Positions 12,208 to 15,608 of a stretch of DNA of 56,176 nt are shown in pieces. Positions within the stretch are counted from its first letter, which is position 1. Every line of letters begins with the position of its first letter. A model generated the notes under the pieces. The model did not search any database and was not told where the DNA came from. It worked only from the letters and a program-made list of their open reading frames with translations. The DNA comes from Candidatus Cryptoclostridium obscurum (lineage in GTDB: Bacteria > Bacillota > Dehalobacteriia > UBA7702): contig CAJFVQ010000053.1 of NCBI GenBank assembly GCA_904420535.1, positions 1 through 56,176 of the forward strand, in the 5' to 3' direction. Both the position numbers and the translations under genes were made by a program.

Positions 12208-12750
12208 ATGAGGTATCAAAACAACGAGGAATTGGCAGATTATGTCAATCTTTTCGTCTCCATTTTGATATGTTTTCCAGAAGTGGGAACCATTAAATTT
12301 GATAAAGACAGTCAGGACCTCTTTTTTACCTTCATTCTGAAAAAAATCGGCACATCCGAGCGCAAAGCATTGGATTTTGGTCTGGTAAGAATCGATATGG
12401 CTTTGGCCCAATATCACCGTATGAAAAAAACGACACCTTATCGTTACCAAGTCAATGTTCATTCCTTGGGAGACCATGCGGTGATTGAAGTGAAACGGGA
12501 TATACAGACCATAACGAGGGAAGAAATTTCTTTTCTGGTGGAACTCTATCGCACTGAATTCAATGAACATCTGGTAATGGAATGCGTTGAACATGAGGAT
12601 CCGCTTGGCGGTGACTGGTATGAGCATGGCAATGTAGTGGAATCCGTTGTGGAAACCAAGCGAATTACGTTTGATGAGAAAAGTATTGGCAATCGTATTG
12701 TTGTATGCCGTGAGGCGGGGAAAGTTTTAGTTTTCAGCAATCCTCAATGA
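12208..12750 (+). CDS. Conserved-looking protein of unknown function
   Basis: A 180-residue soluble protein I do not recognise. It has no signal peptide or membrane helix. The sequence alternates hydrophobic and charged residues as in an alpha/beta fold, with a short Trp/Tyr-containing segment GGDWYEHGNVVESV near residue 135 and a C-terminal strand-rich end. A ribosome site (AAAGGATGTG) precedes ATG 12208. It lies between rny and ymdB on the same strand with gaps of 220 and 31 bases, so it may share regulation with ymdB. Codon use resembles its neighbours. No function is proposed. Confidence 0.8.
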   Translation: MRYQNNEELADYVNLFVSILICFPEVGTIKFDKDSQDLFFTFILKKIGTSERKALDFGLVRIDMALAQYHRMKKTTPYRYQVNVHSLGDHAVIEVKRDIQTITREEISFLVELYRTEFNEHLVMECVEHEDPLGGDWYEHGNVVESVVETKRITFDEKSIGNRIVVCREAGKVLVFSNPQ

Positions 12751-12781: not shown

Positions 12782-13570
12782 ATGCGCATCTTGTTTTTAG
12801 GCGATATTGTGGGACGTCCGGGGCGTTCTGTTCTGGAAAATAATCTTCGTCGGATTCAGGACGAAGAGAAAATTGATTTTACAATTGCTAATGGAGAAAA
12901 TTCTTCCGGCGGGTTCGGTATGAATAAAAAAGGGTATGATGCCATGATCATGAGCGGCATTGATGTTTTTACCATGGGAAATCATACATTTGATAATAAA
13001 CGGATTGTTGATTTCATTGATGATGCCGATATTGTACGCCCTCTTAATCTAACAATGAGCGCTCCGGGGAAAGGAATTCGTTCTTACCCTTTGCCAGATG
13101 GAAGAAAAATTACCATCATTAACCTTTTGGGCCGCGTTTACAGTCATCTTAACGTTGACTGCCCTTTTAAAACCATGGAATCGGTTCTGAAAGATCACTC
13201 TTTGAAAGAAGAAATCTTGTTTGTGGATATTCATGCCGATGCTACTTCGGAAAAGGTTTGCTTGGGACATTTTCTCGACGGTCGTGTTTCTGTTGTGGCT
13301 GGAACCCACACGCACATCCAAACGGCTGACGAACGGATTTTATCTAGAGGAACTGCTTATATTACCGATGTCGGAATGACAGGGGCATACGATTCCAGCT
13401 TAGGTATGGACAAAGAAGCTGCGATCTCTCGTTTTACCAGCGTTCTTGGGGGAAAAATGGTACCCGCATTGGGAGAACGGCAGATCAACGGAATTATTGT
13501 TGAAATTAATGACCAAAATAAAGCCATTTCCATGCACCGTATTTTTCAGGTTTATCCGGAAGAAATTTAA
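12782..13570 (+). CDS. ymdB: YmdB-type metallophosphoesterase
   Basis: A 262-residue calcineurin-like phosphoesterase of the YmdB/TIGR00282 family. Metal-binding motifs appear in order: FLGDIVGRPGR (residues 5-15), NGENSSGG (near 40), GNHTFDN (near 68) and GTHTHIQTAD (near 178). Bacillus YmdB hydrolyses 2',3'-cAMP and affects biofilm formation and sporulation timing. The length is typical and the metal ligands look intact. The ribosome site GAAAGGA lies eight bases before the ATG. Position next to rny follows the common Firmicute order; the spoVS gene that often comes next is not present. Confidence 0.92.
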   Translation: MRILFLGDIVGRPGRSVLENNLRRIQDEEKIDFTIANGENSSGGFGMNKKGYDAMIMSGIDVFTMGNHTFDNKRIVDFIDDADIVRPLNLTMSAPGKGIRSYPLPDGRKITIINLLGRVYSHLNVDCPFKTMESVLKDHSLKEEILFVDIHADATSEKVCLGHFLDGRVSVVAGTHTHIQTADERILSRGTAYITDVGMTGAYDSSLGMDKEAAISRFTSVLGGKMVPALGERQINGIIVEINDQNKAISMHRIFQVYPEEI

Positions 13571-13737
13571 ATGGAACGGTATGTTTTGGTTTTGTGAATC
13601 ATAGAATGATTTCAGAAACCGGTTTGGTTTTTTGAAGCGGTAGTAAAATTTTTTTTGATTTTTGGGAAAAATGGGAAGGAATATCAAAAAAGAGAGAGAA
13701 AGTATTTATTGAGTTGTATCAAAAGGGGGTGTCTGCT

Positions 13738-13830
13738 ATGGTAATTGGCAAGATGATTTGCTATAACGCAGAGAAAAACCTTGTTTTGGTGCGGACAAAT
13801 ATGGAGAAATTGAATGAATTTTATGAATAA
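13738..13830 (+). CDS. Possible 30-residue leader or small protein
   Basis: An ATG with a strong site (AAAAGGGGGTG, six bases away) opens a 30-codon frame encoding a small peptide rich in Asn, Lys, Val and Leu. It stops inside the dipeptidase coding region, overlapping that start (ATG 13814) by 17 bases in another frame. No homologue is recognised. Because the overlap and the terminator-like hairpin that follows could couple its translation to dipeptidase expression, it may be a leader peptide. It could equally be an unrelated small protein. Confidence 0.45.
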   Translation: MVIGKMICYNAEKNLVLVRTNMEKLNEFYE

Positions 13831-14773
13831 AAGGAGCCTGCTTGTTCCAGGCTCTTTTCCTTTGCGCGCAGACAGTCATTGCGATACTGTCATTGCTGAA
13901 AAAAACGGTTGTCGCAGTCATATTGATTTTGAATGTATGGAGCAATATTGCGATCTCCAATTTTTCGCATTGTATCTGGAAGAAGAAGGAGATACGGCTT
14001 TGGCAGTAGAAGAGAATGAAGCCGCCTATGAGTGCTATTCTTCTCTGCTGAAGAAATATGAAACCAAGCTGATTCCCGTGCTTACCGGGGCAGATCTGAA
14101 AAATATCGGCAATGGAAGGGTTGGTTCCCTTCTGGCAATAGAAAACAGCGAACCGTTGGCGGAGGATTCGGAAGCGTTATTTCGCCTTTACAAAAAAGGA
14201 TATCGCTCCTTTGGTATTACCTGGAGCAATGAAAACTCCTTGGGCGGCGGTGTTAACACCGATGTAGGACTGAAACCCTTGGGACGGAAGGTACTCCGTG
14301 CCATGAACGCTTTGCCGGTCATCGTCGATTTGGCTCATATGAATGAGCAGACCTTTTTTGACGCGATGGAAATTCTGGAGCGGCCGCCCATTGTGACCCA
14401 TGCTTGCTGTCGCAAACTTTATGACCACAAACGCAATCTCACTGACGAACAATTGAGGTATTTGGCGGAAGCCAGAGGTATGTTGGGGATTACCTTCGCC
14501 CGCGGATTTTTGGATATAAATGGCGGAAGTATTGATCGCATTGTAGATCATGTGATCCATGCTGCAAATATCATGGGGATTAATCATGTCTGTTTTGGTT
14601 CTGATTTTGACGGGACAGATTTACCCCTTGATATGACAGGACAACAAGATTTGGAACAGCTCCGCCGCCAAATGTTAGAGAGGAATTTTTCTTCCCAAGA
14701 GGCTGATGCTGTTTTAGGTGAGAATCTCGTGAGCTACGTGTGGGAGCGATTGGAGGGAAGCGATGCGCTTTGA
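13814..14773 (+). CDS. Membrane dipeptidase family M19 peptidase
   Basis: A 319-residue zinc dipeptidase of the renal-dipeptidase (M19) amidohydrolase family. Recognised segments are DSHCDT near residue 20 (the usual DGHxD metal motif in modified form), DLAHMNEQTFFDAM, PPIVTHACCRKLYDHKRNLTDEQ and GSDFDG. It likely cleaves small dipeptides, possibly cell-wall or D-amino-acid-containing ones. ATG 13814 has GGAG seven bases upstream. The first 18 codons overlap a terminator-like hairpin, so a later TTG at 13862 is an alternative, though it has no visible ribosome site. The 3' end overlaps the PHP gene by 11 bases. Confidence 0.88.
   Translation: MNFMNKRSLLVPGSFPLRADSHCDTVIAEKNGCRSHIDFECMEQYCDLQFFALYLEEEGDTALAVEENEAAYECYSSLLKKYETKLIPVLTGADLKNIGNGRVGSLLAIENSEPLAEDSEALFRLYKKGYRSFGITWSNENSLGGGVNTDVGLKPLGRKVLRAMNALPVIVDLAHMNEQTFFDAMEILERPPIVTHACCRKLYDHKRNLTDEQLRYLAEARGMLGITFARGFLDINGGSIDRIVDHVIHAANIMGINHVCFGSDFDGTDLPLDMTGQQDLEQLRRQMLERNFSSQEADAVLGENLVSYVWERLEGSDAL
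13834..13859 (+). terminator. Terminator-like hairpin inside the dipeptidase start region
   Basis: GAGCCTG and CAGGCTC form a 7-bp stem around a short loop, followed by TTTTCC. It sits four bases after the small-ORF stop and within codons 8-15 of the dipeptidase reading frame, an unusual place for an intrinsic terminator. Confidence 0.5.
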
Positions 14774-15608
14774 TTTTCATGTCCATAGCATTCATTCCGA
14801 CGGTACCCTTTCTGTTCGGGAATTGGCTGCCCTCAGCGTTGAAAAAGGTATTGATGGTTTTGCTTTGACAGATCACGATACCATTGAGGGATGGTATCAG
14901 ATACCTGTTGCAGAAAAAGAATATGGGATTACGATTCTACCTGCAGTGGAAATTAGCACAGAATGGCAGAATCGAGATGTTCATATTCTTGGTTTTGGTA
15001 TCCCTATACATTCCCAAAGTTTCCAAAAATTTTTAAAAATCTTATGCGATGAGAGGATAACAAGGGTTCGCAAAATCATTCAAAAGGTGAATGACCTCGG
15101 TATGTTCCTTTCTTTTGAAGAAGTCAAACGTCAAAGCAACGGTTCTTTGGGGCGCCCTCATGTGGCTGCGGCCATGGCGGAGAAGGGGTATGTAAAAGAT
15201 GTTGGTGAAGCTTTTGCCAAATATTTGAATCGGGGGAAGAAATGTTATGTCCCGCGATCCCATGTCTCTCCCATGGAGGCTGTAGACGAAGTCGTTCAAT
15301 CGGGAGGTGCGGCGGTTTTGGCCCACCCTGGGATTGATCAAGCTTATCAAGTTTTAGAAGATTTGGTGGATCATGGTCTCAAAGGAATTGAGGTCTACCA
15401 CAGTTCACATCATCCGGGCATGGAGACAAAATTTATCCGCATGGCAAAAGAGTTCGGACTTTTTGTTTCCGCAGGTTCCGATTTTCATCGTTTGGAAGAC
15501 GATTCCCACGGAATGCTCGGTACGAAAACACTGGATTGGGAACATATGGGGTCTTATTATCGGCATCTCATTATGGAACGAAAGAAGGATATGGGTGCAA
15601 ATGTTTAA
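14763..15608 (+). CDS. PHP-domain phosphoesterase
   Basis: A 281-residue protein of the PHP family close to YciV/RNase AM-type enzymes. The start reads RFDFHVHSIHSDGT, giving the first H-x-H metal motif, followed by LTDHDTIEGW, AVEISTEW and, near the C-terminus, GSDFHRLE. Members hydrolyse 3',5'-nucleoside bisphosphates or trim short RNA 5' ends. GGAGG lies five bases before ATG 14763 and inside the dipeptidase gene, so the genes are coupled. The stop overlaps the cobS start by eight bases. The precise substrate is not evident. Confidence 0.87.
   Translation: MRFDFHVHSIHSDGTLSVRELAALSVEKGIDGFALTDHDTIEGWYQIPVAEKEYGITILPAVEISTEWQNRDVHILGFGIPIHSQSFQKFLKILCDERITRVRKIIQKVNDLGMFLSFEEVKRQSNGSLGRPHVAAAMAEKGYVKDVGEAFAKYLNRGKKCYVPRSHVSPMEAVDEVVQSGGAAVLAHPGIDQAYQVLEDLVDHGLKGIEVYHSSHHPGMETKFIRMAKEFGLFVSAGSDFHRLEDDSHGMLGTKTLDWEHMGSYYRHLIMERKKDMGANV

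Follow-up and report, generated by a model that had tools for sequence, protein, structure and literature searches.

Gene neighbourhood

The locus lies on contig 53, one of the 101 contigs of a 2.1-Mb genome, and this contig, 56,176 nt in all, is the window of our analysis. Here ymdB is followed, after a leader of 243 nt, by a gene of 319 codons for a protein of the M19 membrane-dipeptidase family, whose end is overlapped by a PHP-domain gene (Table 1). The N-terminal HxD metal motif of the M19 family is present, with H22 and D24 invariant across 19 aligned dipeptidase proteins, and we take these two residues to be metal ligands. The leader and the first codons of the dipeptidase gene contain a small reading frame and a terminator-like hairpin, to which the rest of this analysis is devoted. 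A scan of positions 13500-14100 placed none of 4227 Rfam families above its own cut-off (the gathering score). Further upstream, a gene of 180 amino acids (12208-12750) sits between ymdB and an RNase Y-like gene; it has no Pfam or NCBIfam match above cut-off, and relatives at 36-46% identity occur in two of the related genomes described below (G001 and G003).

Table 1. Features of the dipeptidase leader and its neighbours, with positions in the window
Feature	Position	Strand	Basis and remarks
ymdB (TIGR00282)	12782..13570	+	Pfam YmdB, E 1.4e-95; NCBIfam TIGR00282; upstream gene
Small-frame ribosome site AAGGGGGTG	13723..13731	+	Sequence
Small leader frame, 30 codons, MVIGKMICYNAEKNLVLVRTNMEKLNEFYE	13738..13830	+	ATG 13738, TAA 13828-13830
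Dipeptidase ribosome site GGAG	13803..13806	+	Sequence; within the small frame
M19 membrane-dipeptidase-family gene, 319 codons	13814..14773	+	Pfam PF01244, E 1.5e-67; ATG 13814
Alternative dipeptidase ATG 13823, in start/stop overlap ATGAATAA	13823..13830	+	Sequence; -8 spacing
Terminator-like stem-loop GAGCCTG-CTTGTTC-CAGGCTC	13834..13854	+	Sequence, folding; 7 bp, 7-nt loop
T-rich tail TTTTCCTTT	13855..13863	+	Encodes part of S-F-P-L; F and P codons identical in 4/4 genomes
PHP-domain gene, downstream	14763..15608	+	Pfam; overlaps dipeptidase end; gene order same in relatives

The small leader frame

An earlier note on this DNA had described a frame of 30 codons overlapping the dipeptidase start by 17 bases in another frame. 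That description holds: the dipeptidase ATG lies in the +1 frame relative to the small frame, the overlap is 17 nt, and the small frame overruns both the dipeptidase ribosome site and the dipeptidase start. The same note called the ribosome site of the small frame strong, which overstates it; we regard the site as fair, the longest exact match to AAGGAGGTGA that was scored being 4 nt. Longer in-frame starts are available at TTG 13714 and GTG 13729.

How often would such a frame arise by chance? We shuffled the leaders of the four family genomes (defined below) with dinucleotides preserved, keeping the stretch from the dipeptidase start to the hairpin intact. Under a lax rule (at least 20 codons, a start at ATG, GTG or TTG, a 4-nt SD match and an end within 12 nt of the stem), 365 (window species), 245 (G001), 286 (G002) and 271 (G003) frames per 4000 shuffled leaders qualified, or 6-9%. 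Under a strict rule (ATG, 20-40 codons, the observed frame), the values were 3.0, 1.0, 1.7 and 1.9% of 5000 shuffles for the same genomes in the same order, with the criteria of both rules chosen after the data had been seen and the stop of the frame sitting in the unshuffled part. Because the rules are post hoc and the genomes related, we read these figures as moderate support for a small frame exceeding chance in the four leaders.

Two identities for the small frame were considered and rejected. The window frame has a weak Pfam match to Gin (E 0.053, below cut-off) that the frames of the three relatives do not share. The other was a SpoVS remnant; spoVS was found in none of the four family genomes and in one of seven genomes searched, and the small frame bears no evident likeness to SpoVS. 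In another relative, G005, spoVS adjoins the dipeptidase gene.

The hairpin and its T-rich tail

The claim of a terminator-like hairpin with a T run inside the dipeptidase coding region, just past the small stop, is likewise borne out: 3 nt separate the small-frame stop from the stem in the window species, and stem and T-rich tail fall in dipeptidase codons 7-17. The stem can be extended outwards to 11 bp by one G-U and three A-U pairs. The element has the form of an intrinsic terminator, a GC-rich stem followed by a T run, with five GC pairs among its 7 bp and T at seven of the next nine bases, the T run being interrupted by CC. Positions 13820-13866 fold at -15.0 kcal/mol against -7.7 (sd 2.1) in dinucleotide shuffles, 3.4 sd below the shuffle mean, and one of 200 shuffles was as stable. 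A comparable stem and T tail was present within the first 60 nt of 2 of the 292 predicted CDSs on 20 contig stretches and the window, these two being the dipeptidase gene itself and one short frame. A search for the exact stem pattern gave a single match in each of three family genomes, including that of the window, and two in the fourth, this place always being among the matches.

We scored the hairpin with a formula in which positive values mark a likely terminator. The best extension in each of the four family genomes gave the marginal scores -3.7, 0.4, 2.2 and -8, so that termination would be partial at most. An antiterminator was considered and rejected as a general feature. RNAalifold predicted that the T tail pairs with an upstream GGGAAAA; judged by duplex energy, pairing with the tail went beyond shuffles only in G001 (14/500) and G002 (11/500) and was ordinary in the window species (229/500) and G003 (171/500), and no pairing with the left arm was found in any of the four.

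Layout across the family

By family we mean four genomes of two genera, that of the window and three of a sister genus (G001, G002 and G003), whose dipeptidases are 44-46% identical to the one in the window. A scan of the GTDB genome collection with a single protein found no relative, and a profile scan of the same collection with four proteins found the same three relatives and none further. Each of the three carries GAGCCTG, a 7-nt loop, CAGGCTC and then NTTTCCTTT within the dipeptidase frame, together with a small frame of 25 codons in the same relative frame as that of the window. The small-frame stop precedes the stem by 3 nt in the window species and in G003, and by 6 nt in G001 and G002. 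In all four genomes an SD-like site precedes the small frame, at long spacing in G002, and GGAG or GGGAG stands inside the small frame before the dipeptidase ATG. Overlaps with the first dipeptidase ATG are 17, 17, 11 and 11 nt, and the spacings from the small-frame stop to the second dipeptidase ATG are -8, +1, +4 and +4. Judged by layout alone, all four genomes have the overlapping or close stop and start, with a ribosome site, of a coupled pair; judged by reading frames only, all four have a frame ending at the putative terminator, as in attenuators of the pyrE/pyrBI type.

Conservation of the small ORF, which the earlier note took to bear on its proposal, extends to frame and position in all four genomes and stops short of the peptide, in which Met1 is the sole invariant residue; comparison of the four peptides by eye found no conserved arrest peptide or common codon run. 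A dipeptidase start downstream of the hairpin, which that note had counted against its own idea, is an option in the window species, at a remote TTG (13862). Between hairpin and HCDT motif the three relatives contain no ATG, GTG or TTG at all, so there the gene would be reachable only by transcripts that cross the hairpin. With four genomes only, three of them from one genus, the independent events behind this layout are few.

Selection beyond the protein

The four aligned dipeptidase genes share 101 invariant residues, 18 of which have a single codon throughout. Six invariant residues are encoded by the stem and tail (S8, L9, G13, S14, F15 and P16), and the loop residues vary. The same codon is used in all four genomes for five of these six residues, against 11 of 93 elsewhere in the gene with Met and Trp left out (p 3e-4), and for residues with four- or six-fold degenerate codons the counts are 4 of 5 against 3 of 46 (p 7e-4). 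In the tail, F is TTT and P is CCT in every genome. The sole exception, TCA for TCT in G003, adds a pair and lengthens the stem of that genome. Pairwise codon identity with the window species gave p values of 0.002, 0.012 and 0.067, the last for G003.

We also drew 5000 synonymous recodings with local codon use for each genome, and a hairpin as stable as the natural one appeared in 68 (window species), 158 (G001), 883 (G002) and 45 (G003) of them. The G002 hairpin, taken alone, is unconvincing, since it is not unusual against such recodings. Taken across the four sequences, the comparison indicates that the hairpin and its T-rich tail are kept by selection beyond the protein, and that the sequence of the small peptide is irrelevant to the putative device.

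An AlphaFold2 model of the dipeptidase, based on an input of 19 proteins (four from the family, 15 from the 26 outside loci described in the next section), has a mean pLDDT of 89.5, falling to 44 for residues 1-10 and below 50 for residues 5-14, and its confident fold starts at about the RADSHCDT motif. The hairpin-encoded N-terminal stretch is thus predicted to be disordered, which makes it unlikely that the extension is maintained for the fold of the enzyme.

Distant relatives and the origin of the hairpin

A search for the dipeptidase in 61 genomes gave matches in 58, and loci were fetched from 30 of these, the four family genomes and 26 of the other 54. Within a region reaching from 120 nt upstream to 50 nt downstream of the position equivalent to dipeptidase codon 18, a terminator-like stem and T tail was found in the gap before the dipeptidase gene in 8 of the 26 outside loci, against an expectation from shuffles of 0.38 over all 30 loci together. 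A looser stem rule gave 10 of 26 and missed the stem in the window, whose full extension swallows the tail; we prefer the rule that gave eight. Seven of the eight stems lie upstream of every listed in-frame start, or of an in-frame stop, and the position of the eighth (L011) is uncertain, a more distant in-frame start being present. In all four family genomes, the hairpin lies 3' of the dipeptidase start. With the outside stems before the gene and the family stems after its start, we infer that the dipeptidase coding sequence seems to have captured what was once an ordinary boundary terminator. A fuller version of this history would add that the first 17 residues exist mainly because the captured terminator must be translated, and that the small frame serves solely to park ribosomes and so places read-through under the control of translation, in a phylum considered to be without tight coupling between ribosome and RNA polymerase; this full version we consider doubtful.

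A possible mechanism

What might such a leader do? We tentatively favour, as a reading that is quite possible if short of probable, a leader through which translation governs whether transcription enters the dipeptidase gene and its operon, in the manner of the pyrE attenuator. The hairpin would fold behind RNA polymerase, and part of the transcripts would end there. A small-frame ribosome reaching its stop in time would cover four to seven of the seven left-arm bases; with the left arm covered the hairpin would not form and transcription would run on, and the same ribosome would be delivered to the dipeptidase start. The ribosome footprint reaches about 15 nt downstream of the first P-site base, and on this figure a ribosome with the stop codon in its A site covers the whole seven-base left arm in the window species and in G003; in G001 and G002 it covers four of the seven bases. 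Initiation at the first dipeptidase ATG would leave a ribosome just short of the hairpin in all four genomes, so the small frame would be what carries ribosomes far enough.

The earlier note had suggested coupled translation or ribosome-position-dependent attenuation. A device that responds to ribosome position predicts the same layout in all four genomes, a non-conserved peptide and synonymous conservation of the hairpin and tail, all of which are found; attenuation and coupling are inseparable by sequence, and the suggestion is best described as plausible and partly supported.

Several known systems offer points of comparison. At rph-pyrE, the attenuator is located before pyrE and the peptide sequence is not the signal; the upstream frame there is a full gene, whereas the frame here, at 25-30 codons, runs past the start of the next gene, among whose codons the terminator-like hairpin is placed. 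The pyrL frame reads through its terminator, and a UTP-dependent pause is needed there; the frame here ends before the hairpin. Leader peptides that sense amino acids or drugs (trp, his, BmrB and similar) also have a small frame ahead of a terminator, as is seen here ahead of a terminator-like element, but no conserved peptide, common codon run or general antiterminator pairing was found in our leaders. The closest working analogy would be attenuation at rph-pyrE and pyrL-pyrBI. One study in E. coli links a stop nearer to the attenuator loop to proper pyrE regulation and read-through (PMC2784333), and the small frame similarly stops close to a terminator loop. Its shortness recalls the pyrL-pyrBI leader of E. 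coli, in which the advancing ribosome is reported to inhibit the terminator hairpin (PMC5021804). More generally, a survey of 3' ends in E. coli describes it as a general phenomenon that they occur within genes as well as behind small upstream frames (PMC7815308). In a literature search on leader-ORF attenuation, coupling, pyrE, runaway transcription, the ymdB/spoVS/dipeptidase neighbourhood, intragenic terminators and small frames with terminators, this leader appeared in no title or beginning of an abstract.

Alternative explanations

Would the ribosome arrive in time? As a proxy for coupled or runaway transcription, the distance from stop to stem did not classify this genome: stems lying 0-11 nt after stops number 12 of 61 here and 10 of 19 in an E. 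coli control, which itself departed from expectation. One source classes Bacillota among the species with runaway transcription (PMC13323073), and a review places B. subtilis terminators a few nucleotides after stop codons, within reach of masking by a coupled ribosome (PMC7858274); the ribosome may therefore come too late. A runaway polymerase that ignores ribosomes, with terminators near stops, would suit a partial terminator that works independently of translation, left at an old boundary between rny-ymdB and the dipeptidase operon when the dipeptidase start moved upstream, and setting a low dipeptidase level by steady read-through, with the small frame incidental. The terminator-like stems before the dipeptidase in distant loci, well above the shuffled expectation, speak for such an origin and the weak terminator scores suit partial read-through; yet small frames in the same register in all four genomes, each with a ribosome site and ending 3-6 nt before the stem, would be left unexplained, as would a start kept upstream of the terminator. 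On balance, we rate the translation-independent terminator as somewhat unlikely. Translational coupling with no transcription stop, in which small-frame ribosomes re-initiate or hold the dipeptidase ribosome site open and the hairpin places or pauses ribosomes, is in our view unlikely. The leader does share with coupled pairs, as portrayed in a review, overlapping frames and a second ribosome site inside the first frame, and its overlaps and spacings fit the statements there that short distances are most efficient and that overlapping pairs are enriched in -8 spacings (PMC12548453). It departs from them in an upstream frame without a conserved peptide and in a conserved terminator-like hairpin directly after it; the same review associates structure right after the upstream stop with less coupling (PMC12548453), and coupling alone would leave the conservation of the T-rich tail unexplained.

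The remaining alternatives do without an RNA attenuator. The inverted repeat GAGCCTG-N7-CAGGCTC is perfect and has no second copy in three of the four genomes, and a DNA operator for a local regulator would likewise conserve synonymous sites; because a conserved T-rich tail flanks just one of its sides and the location just past the small stop points to RNA, we consider an operator very unlikely. Less likely again is that the dipeptidase needs the N-terminal peptide S-L-x-x-x-G-S-F-P, with the hairpin and small frame as chance by-products. The invariance of all six residues in four proteins would follow from such a need, and the G002 hairpin is ordinary for that peptide, but the predicted disorder extends over residues 5-14, the loop residues vary, and codons are conserved, not residues alone. 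That a programmed +1 frameshift, aided by the hairpin, joins the small frame to the dipeptidase in a fused protein is hardly credible: the dipeptidase is indeed +1 to the small frame in all four genomes with the hairpin 3-6 nt past the stop, but the small peptide is not conserved and there is no common slippery codon before the stop (GAA TAA, CGA TGA, CGC TGA and TTA TGA).

Were the translation-gated attenuator to prove correct, the locus would represent an intragenic terminator, gated by translation, that four species of an uncultured Firmicute family have conserved, and would offer a natural test of ribosome control over intrinsic termination in lineages assigned to the runaway-transcription class. 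It would also be a case in which an RNA signal, and not protein function, has shaped an extension of a protein. For annotators, the start of the dipeptidase gene would be placed before the terminator-like element and not after it.

Other structured elements

A second hairpin, with a purine-rich, GGGAAAAGAGGA-like loop, lies between ymdB and the small frame. It is found in the window species, G001 and G003 and, weakly, in G002, with differing stems and similar loops, and is noted at 13648-13692 of the window and after ymdB in loci L039 and L041. The leader motif GGGAAAAGAGGAWTTTC, at no more than two mismatches, has 13 matches in the G001 genome against 1 for the reversed control pattern, and little or no excess in the other three family genomes. 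In a distant relative (L016 in genome G032, about 2423-2380 on the minus strand), the dipeptidase gene has a structured start of another kind: it begins where a strong hairpin ends, with AGGAGG exposed in the loop and a T run after the hairpin.
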